From an uncultured Isosphaeraceae bacterium (lineage in GTDB: Bacteria; Planctomycetota; Planctomycetia; Isosphaerales; Isosphaeraceae): a stretch of 64,000 nt of DNA. The position numbers were made by a program, and so were the translations under genes. Of this stretch, positions 17,387-33,115 are shown piece after piece (within the stretch, counting starts at the first letter, position 1; each line of letters opens with the position of its first letter). The DNA lies in assembly GCA_945957605.1 (NCBI GenBank), contig CAMFLR010000008.1, positions 1 through 64,000 on the forward strand, in the 5' to 3' direction. The notes under the pieces were generated by a model, which was given only the letters and a program-made list of their open reading frames with translations, was not told where the DNA came from and made no database searches.

Positions 17387-18457
17387 ATGTTCGTGGATCA
17401 GGTGGCGATCAATGTTCGCGGCGGAGACGGCGGCAACGGCTGCCTGGCTTTCCGTCGCGAGAAGTACGTGCCTCGCGGCGGCCCGAGCGGTGGTGACGGG
17501 GGCCGTGGTGGGCACGTTGTCGTGCGCGCAGTCGATGGCTTGACCAATCTGGCACATATGTCATTCCAGCGCCACTGGAAGGCCGATCGCGGCGGTCACG
17601 GACTTGGGTCCGATTGCCACGGCCGAGGCGCGGAAGACCTGTACATTGATGTTCCCATTGGCACGATCGTTCGCGATCGCGACAAGGACATCGTCTTGCG
17701 CGACCTGAAAAAGGCGGGCGAGACGATCGTCGTGGCACGCGGCGGACGTGGTGGCTATGGCAACAAGCATTTCAAATCGGCGACCAATCGCGCTCCAAGA
17801 CAGCACGAAGAGGGGCTGCCGGGCGAAGAGTCGTGGATCACGCTTGAACTCAAGGTGATCGCCGATGTCGGTCTGATCGGTTTGCCCAACGCCGGTAAAT
17901 CGACGCTACTCTCGCGCATTTCCCGCGCTCACCCCGAGATCGCCGACTACCCGTTCACGACGAAGTATCCCAATCTCGGGACGGTTCATGCGGGCGATCG
18001 CACCTTCATCGTTGCCGATATTCCGGGATTGATTGAAGGTGCGCACGAAGGGCACGGTCTCGGGCATGAGTTTCTGAGGCATGTCGAGCGAACGCGCGTG
18101 CTCGTGCATCTCGTCGATTCGATGCCTGCGGATGGATCGGACCCGGTTGCCAATTACCGGACGATTCGTAGCGAGCTGGAAAAATATAGTGCTGCACTCG
18201 CCGCCCGGCCGGAAGTCCTGGTCGTCACCAAGATGGACGTGACCGGCTCGGAAGAAGCGCGCGACCGGATTGCCCGCGAGCTTTGCCGCGAGGTGATTCC
18301 GATCTCCGCGGTGACTGGTAAGGGCTTGCCTGCGTTGATCCAGCGGATCTCGCAATTGCTCGACGAACTGCCCAAGGAAGGCGAGACGGAAGCTCCTTCG
18401 GCATTCGCTGCACTTCGTGGAAATGCGATCGCCGCTCAAGTCGCGCGGGAGCAGTGA
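17387..18457 (+). CDS. obg: Obg-family GTPase
   Basis: A 356-residue ribosome-associated GTPase needed for 50S assembly. The glycine-rich Obg fold covers about 1-158 (RGGDGGNGCLAFRREKYVPRGG). The G domain follows: G1 GLPNAGKST (165-173), switch region YPFTT, G3 DIPGLIEGA, G4 TKMD, G5 SAVTGKG. There is no C-terminal OCT domain, as in many non-Firmicute Obg proteins. It lies 54 bp after rpmA and directly before coaX, so it is part of one operon. Confidence 0.96.
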   Translation: MFVDQVAINVRGGDGGNGCLAFRREKYVPRGGPSGGDGGRGGHVVVRAVDGLTNLAHMSFQRHWKADRGGHGLGSDCHGRGAEDLYIDVPIGTIVRDRDKDIVLRDLKKAGETIVVARGGRGGYGNKHFKSATNRAPRQHEEGLPGEESWITLELKVIADVGLIGLPNAGKSTLLSRISRAHPEIADYPFTTKYPNLGTVHAGDRTFIVADIPGLIEGAHEGHGLGHEFLRHVERTRVLVHLVDSMPADGSDPVANYRTIRSELEKYSAALAARPEVLVVTKMDVTGSEEARDRIARELCREVIPISAVTGKGLPALIQRISQLLDELPKEGETEAPSAFAALRGNAIAAQVAREQ

Positions 18458-18458
18458 G

Positions 18459-19214
18459 GTGCTGCGGCTGCTGGCCGACCTCGGCAACTCCCGGCTGAAG
18501 TGGGGACGAATCCTCCCCGACCGCTCGCTCGAAATCATCAACCTGCCGCTCGACGACTCCGAAGCGTGGCAGGCAGCATGGTCGCGCTGGAATCCGGCCG
18601 GTGAAGCGTCGAGCTGGGCAATTTCGACCGTCAATCCGCCCGTCGCCGCGCGGCTGGAAGAGTTCTTGAGCACGGTTGCGAACGCGACGGTTCGCTGGTT
18701 TCGCTCGGCCGCGGACGTGCCGGTAAGTCACGACCTCGAAAACGTGCATACCGCCGGTACCGATCGCGCTTTTAACGTGATTGGTGCACTTCGTCGGCAT
18801 ACTGATGTGCAACGACCCGGGATCGTGGTTTCCTGCGGATCGGCGATTACCGTCGAGCGAGTCTCGGCTGATGGCGTCTGGCAAGGCGGGGCGATCGCGC
18901 CAGGCTACCGGCTGTCGGCAGAGTCGTTACACTTGCTGTCGACGCAACTCACGCTCGTATCGCCAACTGCTCCTCCTGCGCCGTGGGGGCGATCGACGCG
19001 CCCTGCGCTCGAGGCGGGAGTTTACTGGGGAACGGTCGGCGCGATCCGGGCACTGGTTGAAGGTCAGGCGGCGGAGATGGATTCCGAGCCTTGGATCGTC
19101 TGGTCGGGCGGCGATGCCGAATTGCTCCGCCGCTCGGCTCGCTTGCCGTTTGCGGACGACTCGCTTGCACCGTCGCTCGTGCTCGAAGGCATCCGCGCCG
19201 TTTGCGAGGTGTGA
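18459..19214 (+). CDS. coaX: Type III pantothenate kinase
   Basis: About 251 residues; phosphorylates pantothenate in the first step of CoA synthesis. CoaX signatures are visible: LADLGNSRLKWG near the start (phosphate loop), GTDRAFNVIGA in the middle, SCGSAITVE and GGAIAPGYRLSAESLH. The family's usual DxGTA motif reads SxGSA here, a conservative but notable change. The frame is open to 18417 inside obg. The GTG at 18459, one base after the obg stop with GGGAG upstream, makes the protein begin at the conserved strand and is preferred. Confidence 0.85.
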   Translation: MLRLLADLGNSRLKWGRILPDRSLEIINLPLDDSEAWQAAWSRWNPAGEASSWAISTVNPPVAARLEEFLSTVANATVRWFRSAADVPVSHDLENVHTAGTDRAFNVIGALRRHTDVQRPGIVVSCGSAITVERVSADGVWQGGAIAPGYRLSAESLHLLSTQLTLVSPTAPPAPWGRSTRPALEAGVYWGTVGAIRALVEGQAAEMDSEPWIVWSGGDAELLRRSARLPFADDSLAPSLVLEGIRAVCEV

Positions 19215-19216
19215 AC

Positions 19217-20329
19217 ATGCCGCCCACGGTCGCCGTGTTGACTGCCGATGGAGTGGGGGCGGTCGCGGTGATACGCATCGCTGGCGAGGGCGCGCTTCGA
19301 GCAGTTGCTGAAGTGTTTCGCTCGATTAGCGGCCGCACGCTCGATTACTCTGCTTACAGTCGTCCTCGTTTTGGCCGGATTGGCGACGGACTCGGAGACG
19401 AGGTTGTCGTTGTCGCAGCAAGCGATGAAGACGTGGAAATCCATTGCCACGGCGGCACGGCGGCGGTTGCTTTGGTCGTCGACTCGCTCGTTGCTGCGGG
19501 AACCGTGCGCGAGTCGGCCAGTCCCGATTTGCTCTCCATCGCTGAGGAAGCGGCCGAGGACGTGGCCCACGCGACCACGCTTCGTACAGCGAGCCATCTA
19601 CTCGACCAGCTTATCGGCGCACTCGAAGCCCGTGTCCGGACAATTGAAGCGGCGATTTCGCGTCGGAGCGACGAAGCAATCGGCCTCATTGAAGGTCTGC
19701 TCGCCACTTCGAGCCTGGGACTGCGCCTGGTTGAAGGCTGGAAGGTGGCAATCGCAGGTCGGCCGAACGTCGGCAAGAGCCGGCTACTCAACGCGCTCGC
19801 GGGTTTCGATCGTTCGATCGTCAGTCCCACAGCAGGAACGACGCGCGACTACGTCGGGCTGCGAACCGCGTTTGAGGGCTGGCCGGTTGAGCTTGTCGAC
19901 ACCGCCGGCTTGCGCGCGAGCGTCGACCCCATCGAAGCTGCTGGCGTTGAACGCGCGCATGCGGTTCAGGCCCAGGCAGATCTCGTTTTGCTCGTGCTCG
20001 ACGGCTCGCAGCCACTTACAGATGAAGATCGCGAACTGATCGCGCGCTTTCCAGACGCGCCGATCCTCAAGAACAAGTGCGACCTCCCCACGAGTTGGAA
20101 CGCTGACCTCTCGGTGACGGAAATCTCGGCCGAACGCGGTGACGGAATTGCCGAGCTGGCCGTCGCAATCGGCCGGACCCTTGTGCCGACTCCGCCTGCG
20201 CAGAGCTCTCCCCTGCTCTTCCGAAAGCGACATGTCCGGGCGATGCAGTCGGTCCATGCATTGGTGCAAAACGGTGACTGGTTGGGTGCAGTGGAGGCAA
20301 TTCAAAGAATGCTTCGACCGCACTCGTAA
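19217..20329 (+). CDS. Degenerate MnmE (TrmE)-like GTPase
   Basis: A 370-residue protein, shorter than true MnmE (about 450). It keeps a recognisable N-terminal domain (TVAVLTADGVGAVAVIRIAG; EIHCHGG) and a complete G domain: G1 GRPNVGKSR (181-189), TAGTTRD, DTAG and NKCD. It lacks the GEFxxRAF-type segment of the N-terminal domain, and the C-terminal Cys-x-Gly-Lys motif that true MnmE needs for tRNA wobble-uridine modification. The protein ends at MLRPHS. It starts two bases after coaX. It is probably a paralogue with another GTP-dependent role; a full MnmE may exist elsewhere. Confidence 0.75.
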   Translation: MPPTVAVLTADGVGAVAVIRIAGEGALRAVAEVFRSISGRTLDYSAYSRPRFGRIGDGLGDEVVVVAASDEDVEIHCHGGTAAVALVVDSLVAAGTVRESASPDLLSIAEEAAEDVAHATTLRTASHLLDQLIGALEARVRTIEAAISRRSDEAIGLIEGLLATSSLGLRLVEGWKVAIAGRPNVGKSRLLNALAGFDRSIVSPTAGTTRDYVGLRTAFEGWPVELVDTAGLRASVDPIEAAGVERAHAVQAQADLVLLVLDGSQPLTDEDRELIARFPDAPILKNKCDLPTSWNADLSVTEISAERGDGIAELAVAIGRTLVPTPPAQSSPLLFRKRHVRAMQSVHALVQNGDWLGAVEAIQRMLRPHS

Positions 20330-24590: not shown

Positions 24591-26141
24591 TCAGTCCGGT
24601 AACGCGGCGAGTTCGAGATGGTCGGGATGCGTGTCGTCGGCTGGCGCGTCCGCGGCAGGTCCCGGACGACCCGGAACGAGGCCAAACGCAGCGATTACGA
24701 TGACGATCGCGACGACCAGCATTTGCAAGAAAACATCGCGCAACGTGTGCCCGAGTGATGATTGAACGATGGCGAGTTGATCACTCGAAAGAAGTTCGTG
24801 CGTTTCAGGCCGAAGCGCGGCGATGACGTCGATTCCTTTGGCTCCGGCGCTTTCGAGTCGGTGACCAAAACCAAACGCGAGTGTCGCGCCCAGGAAGCCG
24901 ACACCAAGCGCCCCGCCCATCGTGCGGAAGAACGTGACGGCGGCGGTCGCAACGCCGCGCTGATTCCACGCGACGGCGTGCTGGCAGCTCAAAACGCAAC
25001 TCAGGCTACCGGGACCGAACCCAAGGCCGACGATGATCATCCCCACGAAAAACAGCGTCGGAGCCATCGACGGCCACTGAGTACCCGCGAGCATGAACGC
25101 CGTGCCAACGCTGGCGAGTGCTCCGCCGGCCAGCCCCGTCGCCCGAAAGCCCAGGTTAATCGCGACGCGAACCGAGACAAATACGCTGATCGCCCATGAG
25201 AGAAACAGCGGCGTGAGTGCCCGGCCAGCTTCTGTGGCCGATCCACCTAGTACGCCCTGAACGAACAAGGGAATATAGGTATCAATACCAAAGAGTAAGG
25301 TGCCTATTGCGAAGCTCATGATGATTGATGCTGCGATCGGTTTGCGGGCAACGAGATCGAGCGGCAGCACCGGATTGCGCACTCGTCGTTCCCAGGCGAC
25401 GAAGAACGCGAGAACGACCGTCGCACCGACGAGGCAAAGTGCCACGCGCATCAACGACGCATGCGGTCCCTGAAGCACGGCGAGCAGCAACAGCGATGTG
25501 CCAATCGCAAGCATCGACGCGCCCTGCCAGTCGATACTCGTATCGGGCTTTTCCTTGATCTCCTCGCGAACGTAAAGCACGAGAATGAAGGCCGAAAGCA
25601 ATGAGAATGGTACGGTCACATAAAACACCCAGCGCCACGAGAGATGGTCGGTCAACCACCCGCCGAGCGCAGGACCGGCGATGCTCGACAGCCCCCAAAC
25701 GCCGCTAAAGAGCGACTGCACCACCGCGCGTTCTTTGAGCGTGAACAGGTCACCCATCATCGTCAGGACGATCGGTCCGACCGCGCCGGCGCCGAGACCT
25801 TGAAGCACGCGCATGGCAATGAGCATGCCCATTGATGTTGATTGGCCCGAAAGAATCGAGCCGAGTGAGAACAGCGCGAGTCCGAAGAGAAGCAGCAGCT
25901 TGCGGCCGACGATATCGGCAAGCTTGCCGTAGATCGGCGTCGAAACCGTGCACGCGAGAAGATATGAGGAAAAGACCCAGGGGTAAATGTCGAGCCCCTT
26001 GAGCGACGCGATGATTGACGTCATCGCAGTGGAGACGACCGTTTGCTCGATCGCCGTGACAGCCATCGCCAGCAGGAGTGCAGACGTCACCATCACGCGG
26101 CTGGGATTGTTGCTTGCGGTCGTCGAATCCGAGGAAGTCAT
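24591..26141 (-). CDS. DHA2-family (EmrB/QacA-type) drug exporter
   Basis: A 516-residue MFS transporter with 14 predicted helices. It has the DHA2 pattern: an acidic helix 1 (AVTAIEQTVVSTAM), WVFSSYLLACTVSTPIYGKLADIVGRK (motif A), MRVLQGLGAGAV, and a motif C-like segment GLSSIAGPALGGWL. It exports hydrophobic or cationic toxic compounds by proton exchange. Its start codon overlaps the stop of the UvrA-like gene by 4 bases (ATGA), so the two are translationally coupled. Confidence 0.9.
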   Translation of the reverse strand: MTSSDSTTASNNPSRVMVTSALLLAMAVTAIEQTVVSTAMTSIIASLKGLDIYPWVFSSYLLACTVSTPIYGKLADIVGRKLLLLFGLALFSLGSILSGQSTSMGMLIAMRVLQGLGAGAVGPIVLTMMGDLFTLKERAVVQSLFSGVWGLSSIAGPALGGWLTDHLSWRWVFYVTVPFSLLSAFILVLYVREEIKEKPDTSIDWQGASMLAIGTSLLLLAVLQGPHASLMRVALCLVGATVVLAFFVAWERRVRNPVLPLDLVARKPIAASIIMSFAIGTLLFGIDTYIPLFVQGVLGGSATEAGRALTPLFLSWAISVFVSVRVAINLGFRATGLAGGALASVGTAFMLAGTQWPSMAPTLFFVGMIIVGLGFGPGSLSCVLSCQHAVAWNQRGVATAAVTFFRTMGGALGVGFLGATLAFGFGHRLESAGAKGIDVIAALRPETHELLSSDQLAIVQSSLGHTLRDVFLQMLVVAIVIVIAAFGLVPGRPGPAADAPADDTHPDHLELAALPD

Positions 26142-28957
26142 GAGCGCGATTCCAGTCCTTCGGTCGTTCCGTGGGCGAAGATTTTCGCCAGCACGTTTCC
26201 AGTCGGCGTGTTCTGTGTCGCAATGAATTCAGGCGTGCCGGCGGCGACGATCTGTCCCCCCTGCTCGCCCGCGCCTGGGCCGATGTCGATGATCCAGTCG
26301 GCGGCAAGCATCAATTCGGGACTGTGCTCGACAACTAGCACGCTATGTCCCGGCACGAGCAGCGAGTTGAGCGCCTCGATGAGCGTGCGCGTGTCTTGCG
26401 GGTGTAGCCCCGTGGTTGGCTCGTTGAGAATGAACAGAGTTTTGGGACCACTCGCGGCGCGGGTGATTGCTCCTGGCGTGCTCGCGAGGAACGACGCCAA
26501 TCGCAAACGCTGCGCCTCGCCGCCGGAGAGAGTCGACGCTGGTTGGCCGAGTCGGAGATATTCGAGACCGACGTCGATCATCGGCCGCAGTCTTGCTTGA
26601 ACCCGCGGTTTGGTGCGGAAAAATCCGAACGCCTCGCGCGCGGTCAGTTCGAGCACATCGGCGATCGATTTGCCGCGATACTCGACTTCCAAAACTTCGG
26701 CGCGATAGCGTTTGCCACGGCAATCGGGGCAGCGCATGGTCACGTCGGCAAGAAATTGCATGTCGATGACGAGCTCGCCATTGCCTTCGCAGGTCGAGCA
26801 ACGTCCGCCATCGACATTGAAGCTAAAAGTATTTGCGCCGTAGTTTCTCACCTTCGCTTCGTGCGTACTGGCAAAGGTGCTACGGATCTCGTCGAATACC
26901 TTGACGTACGTCGCCGGATTGGAGCGAGGCGAACGACCTATCGGCGATTGATCGACGAGAGAGACGTGATCGAGCCGCCCGTCGATCGCCAGCGATTGAT
27001 AGGGCAAGGAGGCGATATTCACGCCGGTGAGTTTGCTTTCAAGCGCCGGAAAAAGCGTGTCCTCGATGAGCGTCGTCTTCCCCGCGCCGCTAACGCCTGT
27101 CACCACGCAGAGCACGCCGAGCGGGATCTCGGTGGTGATGTTGCGGAGGTTATGACCATTGGCACCCGTGAGCGTGATGCTGCCGATGCGTTTGCGGCGC
27201 TTCTCGGGAATCAACTCTTCCAGGCCGGCTGCGAGCGCTCGTCCAGTCGCTGATCCGGCGACGTGAACCACGTCGTTCGGTTTCCCCTGGAAAACGATCG
27301 TCCCGCCTTTTTCACCAGCGCCGGGACCGATATCGACGAGGTGATCGGCCGCGGCGATGAACTGCTCATCATGTTCGACGACCACCACCGTGTTTCCCGC
27401 ATCTCGCAGAGCCTGAACGGCGTGGACAAGTCGATCAATGTCGCAAGGGTGGAGGCCGACTGATGGTTCATCGAGAACATAAAGTGTGTTCACGAGTCCG
27501 GAGCCAAGTGCACGCGTAAGCGCAGCGCGGCGACTTTCGCCGGTGGAGAGCGTGCGTGCCGACCGATCGAGCGTGAGATAATTCAGGCCGACGCGTTCCA
27601 GAAATCGCAAACGGGCGATCGCTGGTTCGATGGCCTGTGCGACGTCACGTGCCGATGTCTGGCTGAGCGGATCCAGAAACCCGAGCGTATTTGCGACATT
27701 CAGCCGGAGAATCTGGGTGATGTCGCGATCGCCAATGCGAATCGCTCGTGCTTCGTCGCGAAGCCGGGTTCCGTGACAGACGTCACAAGGTTCGGAACTC
27801 TGCCATCGACCGAGAAAGAGCCGAACGCCCGCTTTCTCGCTACGAGACGCGAGTTTTTGAAAAAACGGCTCGACGCCCAAAAAGCGATGCACTTCGCTTC
27901 CGTGCATCACAAGTTCCACTTGCTCAAGTGGAAGCTGCTCGAAGGGAATGTCGAGGTTAATTCCCATGCTGCCGGCAAACGAGATCAGACGGTCAAAGTG
28001 CTCGCGGTAGGCAGGCGTGGTCCAGGAGGCAATGGCGCCGTCGCGAATAGATTTCGATTGATCCGGAATCACTCGCGCGAGATCGACTTTTGTAACCAAA
28101 CCGGTTCCCTGACAACTCGGACATGCGCCGAGCGGGCTGTCGTAGCGGAAGAGCCGTTGATCGGGCTCGGGGGCGTCGAGTCCGCACGAAGGACAGCGGC
28201 GGCCTCGGTAGTAGGTCAATGTCTCGCCGCCTTCAATCGCCACGCGGCACCGGCCCAGTCCGTGCGCGAACGCGGTGTCGATCGAGTCGATCAGCCGCGG
28301 CATCGCAGTCGATCCTGCGACGAGCCGGTCGACGACGATCTCGACGGTCTGTCCAGACGCAACGTTCGCGCTGGTGGCCGACTCGTCGAGCCGTTTCACC
28401 TCGCCATCGATGCGAACTCGCGCAAAACCGGACGCGCGAAATGAGTCGAAAAGCGCGGGCAAATCGGTTTCGGGGCGAACATCGACGGGAACGAGCACAA
28501 GGAAACGCGTTCCTTCACTCAACGCATGAAGTTGGCGCGCGACCGACGCTGCATCGGCCGGTTCGACGTCAGTTCCACAGCGGCGACAAACGACACGGCC
28601 TGCTCGCGCGAACAGCAACGCGAGGTAATCGTGAATTTCGGTGATCGTCGCCAGCGTGCTGCGACTCGATCGTTTTCCTTGTCGCTGGCCCACGCCGATC
28701 GCTGGGGGAATGTCGTCGATCAGGTCGGCGTCGGGCTTATCAAGGCGTTCCAGGAACTGACGTGTGTAGGGTGAGAAAGTCTCGATGTAGCGTCTTTGCC
28801 CCTCTGCATAAAGGGTGTCGAACGCGAGCGAGCTCTTGCCGGAACCCGATACGCCGGAGAACACCGTGAGCTGGTGTGTCGGCAGGTCGAGGTCGATCCC
28901 CTTGAGGTTGTGGACGCGAACGCCGCGGAGACGAATAACGGGTTGATCCGGTTTCAT
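26138..28957 (-). CDS. UvrA-like ABC ATPase (UvrA2/DrrC type)
   Basis: A 939-residue soluble ABC ATPase of the UvrA family. NBD1 has Walker A GVSGSGKS (35-42), a zinc module (CPSCG...CPSCQG), signature LSTGES (470-475) and Walker B LYVLDEPSVGLH. NBD2 has Walker A GVSGAGKT (Lys627), a second zinc module (CSTCEG...CPDCRG), signature LSGGEAQR and Walker B LFILNEPTTGLH. Thus NBD1 has an altered signature and NBD2 has Asn845 where Asp is usual. True UvrA recognises damaged DNA. UvrA2-type paralogues, such as DrrC, protect against DNA-binding drugs. Coupling to a drug exporter favours that role. Confidence 0.85.
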   Translation of the reverse strand: MKPDQPVIRLRGVRVHNLKGIDLDLPTHQLTVFSGVSGSGKSSLAFDTLYAEGQRRYIETFSPYTRQFLERLDKPDADLIDDIPPAIGVGQRQGKRSSRSTLATITEIHDYLALLFARAGRVVCRRCGTDVEPADAASVARQLHALSEGTRFLVLVPVDVRPETDLPALFDSFRASGFARVRIDGEVKRLDESATSANVASGQTVEIVVDRLVAGSTAMPRLIDSIDTAFAHGLGRCRVAIEGGETLTYYRGRRCPSCGLDAPEPDQRLFRYDSPLGACPSCQGTGLVTKVDLARVIPDQSKSIRDGAIASWTTPAYREHFDRLISFAGSMGINLDIPFEQLPLEQVELVMHGSEVHRFLGVEPFFQKLASRSEKAGVRLFLGRWQSSEPCDVCHGTRLRDEARAIRIGDRDITQILRLNVANTLGFLDPLSQTSARDVAQAIEPAIARLRFLERVGLNYLTLDRSARTLSTGESRRAALTRALGSGLVNTLYVLDEPSVGLHPCDIDRLVHAVQALRDAGNTVVVVEHDEQFIAAADHLVDIGPGAGEKGGTIVFQGKPNDVVHVAGSATGRALAAGLEELIPEKRRKRIGSITLTGANGHNLRNITTEIPLGVLCVVTGVSGAGKTTLIEDTLFPALESKLTGVNIASLPYQSLAIDGRLDHVSLVDQSPIGRSPRSNPATYVKVFDEIRSTFASTHEAKVRNYGANTFSFNVDGGRCSTCEGNGELVIDMQFLADVTMRCPDCRGKRYRAEVLEVEYRGKSIADVLELTAREAFGFFRTKPRVQARLRPMIDVGLEYLRLGQPASTLSGGEAQRLRLASFLASTPGAITRAASGPKTLFILNEPTTGLHPQDTRTLIEALNSLLVPGHSVLVVEHSPELMLAADWIIDIGPGAGEQGGQIVAAGTPEFIATQNTPTGNVLAKIFAHGTTEGLESRS

Positions 28958-29254: not shown

Positions 29255-32200
29255 GTGAGCGATTCGATGTCCGAACGCGACTCCAGGATACCCCCTGAGC
29301 GTTCGTCGGCAACCGGGGCCTGGGAACCAGGCATTGGTGAGCCGAAGGGGTCGTCCGCGCCTGGAGATCCGCCGACCGTCCGAACCGGTTCGGCCAAGCC
29401 CGTCGTCGGCAGTGGTTCGGCGTCTGGCCAGGCGGAGGGCAGCGGTTCGAGCCGGCAGCATTCGGCCTCGCGAAGCGATGAACGCATGCACTCGCTGCCG
29501 CGCGCCGGCGATCAGTTCGATGGTTTCGTCCTCGAAGAGGCGATCGGCGTCGGCGGCATGGGGGCCGTTTTCCGCGCTCACGATTCGCAGCTCGACCGTC
29601 AGGTTGCTGTGAAAGTGTTGCCGCAAGAGCTTGCGAAAGACCCCGAGGCGGTCCAGCGGTTTTATCAGGAAGGTCGCGCGGCGGCCCGGCTCGATCACGA
29701 GAACATCGCCCGCGTCTACACGATCGGCCACGCGTCGTCGTATCACTACATCGCATTCGAGTTCATCGACGGCAGCACGCTCCGGCAACTCGTCGAGCGA
29801 AGCGGGATTCTCTCAGTTAGCGACGCGATCAATTTCACGCTGCAAATTGCCACAGCGCTCGTGCACGCGACCGAACGCGGCGTCGTCCATCGCGATGTGA
29901 AACCTTCAAACATCATCGTCACGCCGCAAGGCCGTGCCAAGCTTGTCGACATGGGCCTCGCCAGACGATTCGAGCGTGGGGGCGACACCGGTCTGACGCA
30001 AACCGGCATGACGCTGGGTACATTTGATTATATCAGTCCTGAACAAGCGAGAGACCCGCGAAACGTCGACGTGCGGAGCGACCTCTATTCGCTCGGCTGC
30101 ACGATGTTCTACATGCTCGCCGGCCGTCCCCCCTTCCCCGATGGCACGGTGCTGCAAAAGCTGCTTCAGCACCAGGAAGAACCGCCGCCCGACGTGCGGA
30201 GCCTGAACGCATCGGTGCCGGCCGACCTCGCCGCCATCCTGCTCAAGCTGATGGCCAAGGATCGCGAGCGGCGGTATCAGTCGCCCGAACAACTCGTGCG
30301 CGACTTGCTGCTCGTCGCCGGATCGCTCAACCTGCGGTCGCTGAGTCCCGAAGGCTTGGTGTGGATGGACGCCACACCCCCGCCATCGTGGGAGCGGCAC
30401 CTCGTTTGGGGGATTCCCACGCTCTTCTTCTCGCTGATTCTACTTGTCTTGATCTGGAATGGTCAGCAAACGACCGAGCAAACACCGCTGCCGTTCTCGG
30501 GCGATGTGATCGCCGTGCCGCCAAAGACGACCAAGACGAGCACTCCGCCCACGCTCGCACCGACCACAACGAAAGTTGAAACGCCAGCGACAACCGCACC
30601 ACGCGATGTGATTGTGCAAAAGTCTGACGACCTTTGGCGGCTGATGTCTGAAGCCGTGCCGGGGACGACGCTTCTGCTCGCCAGCGATGGGCCGTATGAA
30701 ATTCGGCCGGGAACCGCACCTCTATCGCCGAAAGACCTCACGCTTCAGGCCGGCAAAGGGTTGGCGCCGGTTGTAAAGCTTGCCGAGACACCAGCCGCGA
30801 AAACAACACCGGCGATTTTCGACGTGAAGGGTGGGCGGCTGACGATTGAAGGCGTTGAGTTCGATGTCGACTCGGTCGAGCGCGAGGCGCCTCTTGCGGC
30901 GATTCGCACGCAGGATACCGAACTGACGTTGAGCCATTGTGCTTTGCGTCGCGAAGGGGCCAAGGCGGGTAAGACGCAATCGACTGGACTTCACTTGCGT
31001 CAATCGCCTGGCGAGGGCGCGTGGAACGGTCCGGTCGAGGTGGTCATCGATGCGTCGCACTTTGATGGCGGTCAAACTGCGATCGTCACCGAAGGACCCG
31101 TCGAGCTTGTTGCCCGCGACGTAACGTTTGGACCGTCAAACACGAATACATTCGTCTGCGGTAACAAGACAACGCAGCAAGAACAGCGCGGAACTTTGCG
31201 GTTCGAGCGCGCGAGCATTATGAGCAGCAAGGGGCCGGTGTTCAGCTTCACCGGACTTTCGCCGCGCGTTCGGCTTAACGAGAGTGTCATCGCCGCGACC
31301 GGCCAGACGAACATTACGCTCGTTGCGAGCGAAGATCCCACCAAGCTCGATTGGCGCGGCCGCGACAACCTTTATGGTGGGATTGGCACATTCCTGCAAG
31401 GCGAGCGCGGGGCGGCGAGCTTTGTGGCGATTCGCTCGCTGGACGCCTGGCTCGACGACGGCCTGGGAGTTCGCGAGGCCGATTCGACACTGGCAACTGC
31501 TCCCGTGTGGGCCGACGCCGATCCTGCATTCTCACTTGCGAATCACTCGACTCCCGCTTCGAGCGTGTTTCGGCTGAATCCTCGAGCAAGTTTGGGCTCG
31601 AAGCTGGGAGCGCGTCGCGGACCTTCGGGCGCGATTCAGCCCGTGGCGAAGACTGCTGCGCCTCCCGCTGTGGGCGAGCAACCGAAGGTCGTCACGCCGC
31701 CGCCAACGGTCGTTGCCAAGGCAGATACGACGACCACGAAGCAGGCAGTTACGCCAGCAAAGCCGCCCGATGAAGAGATGCCGCGGCCGATGACGCCGAT
31801 GCGTGACCCGGGCGAGGAACAGCCGGTCGAAATGCCGCCGCCGATGGAAGTCGAGCGCACCGACAATCCGCCCAAGAACGCGACTGAAACTGTGGCAAAG
31901 GGCGGCTCGACTGCAGCGCGACCTGCGGCGGACACCCCGAACACAACCAAGCCCGCGACAACGACGACGAATACAGAACCCGTGGTGAACGCGGAAAATC
32001 TGGTAAGAACCGCGACGCAACTGGCATCATCGCTGGGAACGAGCGACGGACGGGCCACCACGATTCGCCTCGCCGCCGATGCCGATTTCGAAATGAGTTC
32101 GTCGCAGCTCAAGGGAATGGGCTCGTGGGTAATTCAGGGCGAGCCGGGCAAAACGCGTCCACGAATTCGGTTCCACCCTCGCGTCGGTGATACGCGGCTC

Positions 32201-33115
32201 TCCGAGGCTTGGACGGTGCTTTTCCATCTCATCTCGGGCAGCCTGCGGCTCGAACGCGTGGATCTCGTGCTGCCCAAGGAATCGGTTCCTCAGTCGGGTG
32301 GCTGGGGGGCATTCGCGGTAGCGCCCGGAACCGACCTGGTTGTGAACGACTGCACGGTAACGATCGAAGGATCGGCGTCGCGCTCGTCGATGATCGTCGC
32401 GCCGGCGGTGCCGCACGAAGTCAATGCGTTTGGCGACGAAGAACCGCAGGAGCAACCGACGGTCACTGTGCGGCTCAAGGATTCACTGTTCCGCGTCGGC
32501 GGTGACCTCGTCGATGTCGCGGCCGATCGACGCGTTGATATCGAGATCGACAACGCGATCATCGCGACAACTGGATCGCTTCTACACGGCCACGGCCGGG
32601 TGCAAGGTTCGCCCGCTGAACCGCTCAAGATCACACTGCGAAAGGTGACGAGCCGGCTTGAAAACGGCCTCATCCAGCTTGAAAGTACGGTGAAAGATCC
32701 CGAGCTGCCGCTGGCCTATGTGGTGGCACGCGAGTCGGTGTTCTCCACGAACGGCAAAGGTGCACCGCTCATCCAGGTTGACGGCCAGGAAGACGCCTCC
32801 GCACTTCGGTCGAAGATCAAATGGGAAGGAAGCGGCGTCGCCTATAACGGGATCAGTATGTACCGGCGCGATCAGGTGTTGAAGCCGGGCGAATTCCCCG
32901 AGTTCTTTGATCGCCTGTCGTGGGAACGCATTGTCGGCCGCAAGGAGCTTGGCTCGATTCACGGAACAACGATGTTCCAGACGGAATTTCCGGCCGATCG
33001 TCCGGCGTGGGCCGCGCAATCATCCGACTTCCGGCTAAAGCCGGACAGCACGGCGGCGAAAAGCGGCGCGGGTTCGGATCTCAAGCTGATTCCCGACCCG
33101 CCCGCCGAATCTTGA
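29255..33115 (+). CDS. Transmembrane Ser/Thr kinase with beta-helix-like ectodomain
   Basis: A 1286-residue protein. A low-complexity Ser/Gly N-terminus (1-85) is followed by a Hanks-type kinase domain: GVGGMG (98-103), catalytic Lys120, HRDVKPSN (212-219), DMGLAR in place of DFG (232-237) and SPEQ. One membrane helix follows at about 384-401. Outside, two regions (about 450-780 and 930-1270) with strand patterns such as 'LTIEGVEFDV' and 'LRLERVDLVLPK' resemble parallel beta-helices. A Pro/Thr linker (about 800-925) joins them. All catalytic residues are present, so an active receptor kinase sensing an external ligand is likely. Start is GTG 29255 or ATG 29267. Confidence 0.88.
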   Translation: MSDSMSERDSRIPPERSSATGAWEPGIGEPKGSSAPGDPPTVRTGSAKPVVGSGSASGQAEGSGSSRQHSASRSDERMHSLPRAGDQFDGFVLEEAIGVGGMGAVFRAHDSQLDRQVAVKVLPQELAKDPEAVQRFYQEGRAAARLDHENIARVYTIGHASSYHYIAFEFIDGSTLRQLVERSGILSVSDAINFTLQIATALVHATERGVVHRDVKPSNIIVTPQGRAKLVDMGLARRFERGGDTGLTQTGMTLGTFDYISPEQARDPRNVDVRSDLYSLGCTMFYMLAGRPPFPDGTVLQKLLQHQEEPPPDVRSLNASVPADLAAILLKLMAKDRERRYQSPEQLVRDLLLVAGSLNLRSLSPEGLVWMDATPPPSWERHLVWGIPTLFFSLILLVLIWNGQQTTEQTPLPFSGDVIAVPPKTTKTSTPPTLAPTTTKVETPATTAPRDVIVQKSDDLWRLMSEAVPGTTLLLASDGPYEIRPGTAPLSPKDLTLQAGKGLAPVVKLAETPAAKTTPAIFDVKGGRLTIEGVEFDVDSVEREAPLAAIRTQDTELTLSHCALRREGAKAGKTQSTGLHLRQSPGEGAWNGPVEVVIDASHFDGGQTAIVTEGPVELVARDVTFGPSNTNTFVCGNKTTQQEQRGTLRFERASIMSSKGPVFSFTGLSPRVRLNESVIAATGQTNITLVASEDPTKLDWRGRDNLYGGIGTFLQGERGAASFVAIRSLDAWLDDGLGVREADSTLATAPVWADADPAFSLANHSTPASSVFRLNPRASLGSKLGARRGPSGAIQPVAKTAAPPAVGEQPKVVTPPPTVVAKADTTTTKQAVTPAKPPDEEMPRPMTPMRDPGEEQPVEMPPPMEVERTDNPPKNATETVAKGGSTAARPAADTPNTTKPATTTTNTEPVVNAENLVRTATQLASSLGTSDGRATTIRLAADADFEMSSSQLKGMGSWVIQGEPGKTRPRIRFHPRVGDTRLSEAWTVLFHLISGSLRLERVDLVLPKESVPQSGGWGAFAVAPGTDLVVNDCTVTIEGSASRSSMIVAPAVPHEVNAFGDEEPQEQPTVTVRLKDSLFRVGGDLVDVAADRRVDIEIDNAIIATTGSLLHGHGRVQGSPAEPLKITLRKVTSRLENGLIQLESTVKDPELPLAYVVARESVFSTNGKGAPLIQVDGQEDASALRSKIKWEGSGVAYNGISMYRRDQVLKPGEFPEFFDRLSWERIVGRKELGSIHGTTMFQTEFPADRPAWAAQSSDFRLKPDSTAAKSGAGSDLKLIPDPPAES

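Follow-up and report, generated by a model that had tools for sequence, protein, structure and literature searches.

What does a bacterial receptor kinase sense when the part lying outside the membrane matches no annotated protein family? This question is raised by a gene in a stretch of 64,000 nucleotides from an uncultured Isosphaeraceae bacterium (assembly GCA_945957605.1, contig CAMFLR010000008.1, positions 1 to 64,000), hereafter called the window. The open reading frame (ORF) at 29255-33115 on the forward strand comprises 1286 amino acids (aa) and a stop codon and starts with GTG, an in-frame ATG at residue 5 being the alternative start. Its product is probably a single-pass receptor Ser/Thr kinase with a beta-helix sensor for a polymer or envelope ligand; the ectodomain is predicted to consist of two tandem right-handed beta-helix modules of the PL6 C-terminal-half type, held on a flexible Pro/Thr tether. 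Moreover, the kinase belongs to a clade found widely in the class Planctomycetia, in which kinase and sensor have been inherited together on the whole. The gene is composed as follows, with structure scores given as predicted local distance difference test (pLDDT) and predicted template modelling score (pTM).

29255..33115, + strand: whole receptor kinase gene, an ORF with ectodomain matches in 35/36 other genomes of the family
29255..29527, + strand: poorly conserved N-terminal tail, residues 1-91, in which a short PTV motif occurs (22 relatives, median identity 31%)
29528..30313, + strand: Hanks Ser/Thr kinase domain, residues 92-353, DMG at 232-234 (PF00069, E 3.2e-45; catalytic residues; median identity 77%, 24 relatives)
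30314..30394, + strand: juxtamembrane segment, residues 354-380, assigned from its position between kinase and membrane helix
30395..30463, + strand: single membrane helix, about residues 381-403 (19-residue hydropathy 2.37 at 383)
30464..30589, + strand: short stalk, residues 404-445 (median identity 13%)
30590..31648, + strand: predicted beta-helix domain D1, residues 446-798 (AlphaFold2 pLDDT 78.1, pTM 0.80; Z 24.1 to 7dmk_A 424-747)
31649..31978, + strand: Pro/Thr-rich linker, residues 799-908 (of 110 residues, 22 are Pro and 21 are Thr; median identity 19%)
31979..33112, + strand: predicted beta-helix domain D2, residues 909-1286, homologous to D1 (AlphaFold2 pLDDT 84.0, pTM 0.88; Z 24.2 to 7dmk_A 430-747)

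Anatomy and predicted fold of the receptor kinase

The catalytic residues of the kinase are complete, with GVGGMG at 98-103, VAVK with K120, RFYQE with E139, HRDVKPSN at 212-219 and the DMG motif, and Pfam Pkinase covers residues 92-345 with 155 bits against a cut-off of 31.7. All six Pfam families listed for the ORF fall inside the kinase domain; the Pfam scan gave the ectodomain no family match and revealed no PASTA repeats, and the NCBIfam search gave the ectodomain no family name. The NCBIfam PASTA-kinase model NF033483 aligned with the kinase part only, at 305.2 bits and thus under its cut-off of 450, while a single-sequence search of the whole ectodomain against the PDB returned five matches, none better than E 0.67 and antibody chains among them. 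The hydropathy scan found one strong hydrophobic stretch, with its 19-residue peak at 383-401, and the runner-up (1.47 at 185) lies within the kinase, which leaves about 883 residues C-terminal to the membrane helix. From hydropathy and the need of the kinase for ATP, we infer that the kinase is cytoplasmic and that the C-terminal ectodomain lies at the envelope or within the periplasm. The initial annotation, made from the letters of the DNA, had described a complete Hanks kinase with DMG, one membrane helix, about 880 residues outside in two blocks split by a Pro/Thr linker, and no PASTA repeats, and it proved accurate on each of these points. In addition, many orthologues carry a short DDxPTVISK-like motif about 150 residues upstream of HRD (a loose pattern in 45/64 proteins), which we presume may be a phosphothreonine docking site.

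The same annotation had suspected beta-helices in the two blocks, and structure prediction agrees: the outcome that it had named as a refutation, a model lacking this fold, was not obtained. AlphaFold2, with input alignments of 10 sequences for D1 and 9 for D2 (the window and its relatives), modelled both domains as right-handed beta-helices, the final 42 residues of D1 being under pLDDT 50. When the models were aligned to solved structures by VIA-align 2 (50 matches listed per domain), both fell best on the C-terminal helix of a PL6 alginate lyase, D1 on 7dmk_A 424-747 with a root-mean-square deviation of 3.4 over 287 residues and D2 on 7dmk_A 430-747 with 3.1 over 288 residues, and other beta-helices among the matches listed, including other lyases, polygalacturonases, tailspikes and adhesins, ranked lower (Z 21.4 to 17.5). 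Foldseek placed PL6 first for D1 (7o7t, E 6.5e-4) and second for D2 (7dmk_B, E 3.4e-3). A profile of 39 D2 domains had a sole match at E up to 0.1 among PDB sequences, 7dmk_A 437-513, which at E 0.032 is marginal alone. The identity of PL6 to D1 and D2 is about 15%, and no Pfam family at E up to 0.01 matched any of the 39 D2 or 10 D1 domains, so membership of PL6 by sequence was not found.

The half of PL6 that the modules resemble bears on their likely role. Two-domain PL6 alginate lyases (BcAlyPL6, AlyGC, Patl3640) likewise consist of tandem right-handed beta-helices, whereas here the helices are fused to a membrane kinase and align away from the half with the active site, which sits in the N-terminal helix according to excerpts of PMC11381880. 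The C-terminal domain of BcAlyPL6 was reported, in passages of PMC8618178, to assist substrate placement and to have weak lyase activity. Because both modules align to the helix of substrate placement and the active site belongs to the other, the predicted fold would suit binding better than catalysis.

D1 and D2 are tandem homologues, since hhalign joins them almost end to end (probability 96.8, E 2.8e-10, 305 columns, 17% identity) and the D2 profile also picks up a portion of D1 in its own ORF (residues 455-586, E 3.2e-14). A chance beta-rich sequence was considered as an explanation of the ectodomain and ruled out by this homology together with the structure models.

Distribution and inheritance of kinase and sensor

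A search for the ectodomain in other planctomycete proteins, as the initial annotation had proposed, returned matches in 35 of the 36 other genomes of the family of the window, mostly in open frames of similar length; split or short ORFs occur in G010, G035 and a few others. The sole family genome missed (G022) is 68% complete and has a weak profile match (1.0e-6). This recurrence puts the receptor kinase ORF beyond chance. Nine ectodomain-bearing loci include two Isosphaeraceae bacteria and two Singulisphaera. Singulisphaera acidiphila DSM 18658 has the orthologue L032, and since this species belongs to the Isosphaeraceae within the class Planctomycetia, the window is placed in the same lineage. 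In Singulisphaera sp. GP187 (L037) a frameshift or an assembly error breaks the orthologue into two ORFs, 1061 and 320 aa long.

At E up to 1e-10, a class-wide D2 profile matches 273 of the 297 Planctomycetia genomes whose completeness is 90% or more. These are profile matches, the kinase motif having been inspected in 40 + 8 loci and found in all but L106, and a second type of kinase or a non-kinase protein may also contribute to the count. An earlier profile built from Isosphaeraceae only had matched 208/297 class genomes at E up to 0.001 with no completeness filter. Among the 20 listed of the 24 class genomes missed, 12 belong to one family, f11, and no f11 row was seen among the matches. 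In a phylum-wide draw at E up to 1e-6, 11 of 149 matched, nine of them Planctomycetia rows and two outside the class, the latter being weak matches of partial length to ORFs that lack the kinase motif; for the 138 misses, the class is visible for the 20 listed. The D2 profile also matches the C-terminal part of three proteins lacking the kinase motif (L178, L179, L180), and L179 has QxxDGSW repeats which by eye we take to resemble those of squalene/prenyl cyclases.

For a closer view, 40 loci from 15 families were picked by hand from the matches of the earlier Isosphaeraceae profile and are not a random sample; the window and 38 of them (L098 and L119 left out) form set A5. A kinase motif of the HRDxKPxN type, a hydrophobic segment and a beta-helix occur in one ORF in 39 of the 40, and the fortieth, L106, lacks the kinase and begins at a contig end. 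The hydrophobic segment is similarly placed across the loci, the weakest values being 1.4 (L118) and 1.5 (L099). Searching with the kinase domain only, the best match was the beta-helix ORF in 6/6 genomes, with 54-61% identity in the five other genomes, and the next kinase reached at most 47% among the matches listed. In the kinase tree, which has 106 rows (101 different, some loci being duplicated) and from which L067 of 54 other-kinase loci dropped out, all 53 orthologue rows fall together, apart from 53 rows of other kinases, with support 100/99. The kinase of the window lies within this supported clade and its ORF ends in a D2-type beta-helix, which is how the clade is defined. The orthologue rows carry DMG in 46 cases, DLG in six and DWG in one, and the other kinases DFG in 26, DLG in 19 and DMG in four, with four unread; DMG is therefore a mark of the clade and not a peculiarity of the window gene.

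The four main groups of the kinase tree, namely f1, f2, f3 with f8, and the remaining one-helix families, come back in the D2 tree (39 rows) with a minimal number of changes, the support for f2 being weak (78/77). The two trees agree on the groups and differ in the order between them, and on these phylogenies the kinase and its sensor were on the whole inherited together. This agreement on the main groups is also why a lone oddity or a recent acquisition was rejected as an explanation.

A simple story is complicated by beta-helix kinases that are not confined to the clade. L143 (of G230) and L048/L151, placed as other kinases, match the D2 profile yet fall outside the 53-row clade, so a second type of beta-helix kinase exists. 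One such kinase resides in the genome of the window itself (G000:C16:105188-107254; L048, L151, L181), in an ORF of 1351 aa with DLG, and its outside part matches the beta-helix profile with E 4.8e-19 and in a second stretch with E 4e-4. G037, G042, G046 and G058 have comparable ORFs, 1345-1458 aa in length and likewise bearing a kinase motif. Ser/Thr kinases are numerous in planctomycetes, and the genome of the window has 116 Pkinase matches in all, some being pieces of one ORF.

The number of helices varies within the clade. Both helices, D1 before D2, are present in 16 of the 40 ORFs (families f1, f3, f6 and f8), with D1 weak in some, such as G106 (18 bits); the other 24 have one helix, and in all 24 the D2 model outscores the D1 model. 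The kinase tree pairs f2 with f1 (90/62), whereas the D2 tree pairs f2 with the other one-helix families (84/98); D1 may have been lost by the forms with one helix or gained by those with two. Moreover, of the 24 genomes lacking a helix match, eight were inspected, and four of these (G089, G110, G193, G082) contain close kinases lacking a detectable helix (L187-L190), with 52-56% identity and ORFs of 427, 449, 436 and 675 aa; in the remaining four, no kinase matched at E up to 1e-70. These four kinases were assigned by identity, outside the tree, and a clear membrane helix was computed for three of them, L189 reaching only 1.4. Their existence indicates that the sensor is dispensable in some lineages. 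If they are orthologues, as identity suggests, the two-, one- and no-helix kinases would form a natural deletion series.

The two sides of the protein also differ in conservation. Median identity to the 24 relatives is 33% in D1 and 35% in D2, far from that of the kinase, and positions shared by 92% or more of the 25 family proteins number 135/262 in the kinase, 34/353 in D1 and 36/378 in D2. The conserved ectodomain residues are mostly Gly, Pro or hydrophobic, with five charged positions in D1 and seven in D2, and are for the most part structural. The sensor is evolving fast within a kept fold, and the ligand could differ between lineages.

What the ectodomain may bind

The protein most likely works as a periplasmic sensor kinase in the way of PknB or PknD, an expectation drawn from analogy. 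The ligand, which could be a polymer of the envelope or the extracellular space (most likely a polysaccharide) or else a protein of the envelope, would bind along the helices and bring kinase domains together; the clustered kinases would then trans-phosphorylate each other's activation segments and send a signal on the state of the envelope into the cytoplasm, as in PASTA kinases but through a different sensor. No lyase activity would be expected from the ectodomain. Ligand-driven dimerization of PASTA kinases is described in excerpts of PMC6213207. Like the PASTA kinases PknB, PrkC and StkP, the window protein would have a Hanks kinase inside, one membrane helix and a sensor outside, and its best NCBIfam score is to their family; unlike them, it lacks PASTA repeats and its predicted sensor is a pair of beta-helices. 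Mycobacterium tuberculosis PknD is likewise a receptor kinase with a rigid all-beta sensor outside, but that sensor is a propeller (same excerpts), whereas a beta-helix is predicted here and the NHL-type family was absent among the Pfam matches.

Several observations weigh against a beta-helix receptor with a polymer or envelope ligand. The topology is derived from hydropathy and the ATP requirement, beta-helices also act as adhesins and rods, and a kinase without a detectable beta-helix was found in half of the eight genomes inspected among those missed by the D2 profile. Most of the conserved helix positions are neither charged nor polar (25/34 in D1 and 24/36 in D2), so that no obvious conserved polar patch is seen. 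In addition, the Foldseek scores are modest, and the best match of D2 is YbhC (3grh, E 1.6e-4), not PL6. The initial annotation had further suggested glycan sensing, and here its two parts fared differently: the fold is supported, with Z up to 24 to solved polysaccharide-acting beta-helices, while a glycan as the specific ligand is plausible and less secure than the receptor model, because the fold matches include the non-enzymatic PfbA, UpaB and viral LH3, the part of PL6 matched best is the half that lacks the main active site, and Gly, Pro and hydrophobic residues make up most of the conserved ectodomain positions. These surface proteins point to another reading, in which the ectodomain binds a protein partner or the surface of a neighbouring cell like an adhesin, or is a structural rod of the envelope, and the kinase reports protein contact or a mechanical state instead of a glycan. 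PfbA (3zpp) aligns with Z 20.6 to D1 and 19.3 to D2, UpaB (6bea) with 19.5 to D2 and LH3 (5g5n) with 20.4 to D1, and the low identity of the ectodomain compared with the kinase and its mainly Gly, Pro and hydrophobic conserved residues favour such a role as well. Judged by their titles, however, most of the 50 matches listed per domain have polysaccharides as substrate or ligand, and the top PL6 match stands 3.4-4.7 Z units over the best adhesin (about 1-3 for other two-domain PL6), and we regard this contact or rod function as unlikely, though to be taken seriously.

An ectodomain that is itself an active polysaccharide lyase or epimerase, coupling polymer degradation to signalling, would agree with polysaccharide lyases being the nearest folds and with the weak activity reported for the C-terminal domain of BcAlyPL6. 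This is very unlikely, since both modules fall on the C-terminal half of 7dmk_A (424-747) and not on the half with the active site, Pfam matched no D2 or D1 domain, conserved charged positions are few, and fast evolution within a kept fold speaks against an enzyme whose active site is fixed. The helix-less kinases of 427, 449, 436 and 675 aa would in turn fit an ectodomain that is a passive leftover, with kinase output independent of it; the fused beta-helix is nevertheless open and recognizable in most of the class, which is not predicted for a passive domain, and this is the least probable reading. Going beyond the receptor kinase with a beta-helix sensor, we tentatively propose a class-wide, envelope-sensing kinase of Planctomycetia that would fill the role of the PASTA kinases of Gram-positives, with a PL6-like beta-helix that would sense an envelope or extracellular polysaccharide and lineages that would tune it by two, one or no helices; this is possible, but clearly more doubtful than the receptor model itself.

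Genomic context and meaning for Planctomycetia

The neighbours of the gene carry the Pfam names Obg, type III pantothenate kinase, MnmE/TrmE (17387-20329), MFS transporter, UvrA (26138-28957), alpha/beta hydrolase and GT9 glycosyltransferase. MnmE directly adjoins the kinase in 7/12 Isosphaeraceae loci and lies about 3.4 kilobases off in one more, was not seen in the stretch examined around L034 and L134, and is separated from the kinase by several kilobases including UvrA in the window and its genus mate L031, which suggests a rearrangement; UvrA adjoins the kinase in four of nine loci. A conserved partner gene was sought over 40 loci (477 ORFs), and no non-kinase neighbour family was common to more than six genomes, so no operon function is claimed. 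The neighbourhood does not tell the function of the receptor kinase.

Generally, receptor kinases with assorted ectodomains are already known. Excerpts of PMC11032199 describe planctomycete transmembrane Ser/Thr kinases with WD40, TPR or DUF1080 ectodomains, which resemble the window protein in being single-span proteins of the same phylum with periplasmic accessory domains. That survey used Pfam accessory domains and, in those excerpts, reports that such domains are scattered and that no highly supported clades share an architecture, whereas the ectodomain of the window has no Pfam match and yet the kinases bearing it form a highly supported clade. Because the ectodomain has no Pfam match, surveys based on Pfam see the kinase and miss the sensor. 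No paper on a beta-helix sensor with a Hanks-type kinase, or on this class-wide family, was found in the open-access literature; the main text of an older survey of prokaryotic kinase architectures (PMC1262709) contains no word beginning with "helix", and that of a paper on essential genes of Planctopirus limnophila (PMC10632474) does not contain the word kinase. A beta-helix sensor in a class-wide kinase clade would be new to the open-access literature searched.

A kinase that is widespread in the class and inherited with a sensor invisible to annotation offers a concrete first target for learning what planctomycete receptor kinases sense, and the natural occurrence of this kinase type with two, one or no beta-helices opens the role of the sensor to testing. 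The beta-helix receptor kinase may be a shared surface sensor of Planctomycetia.

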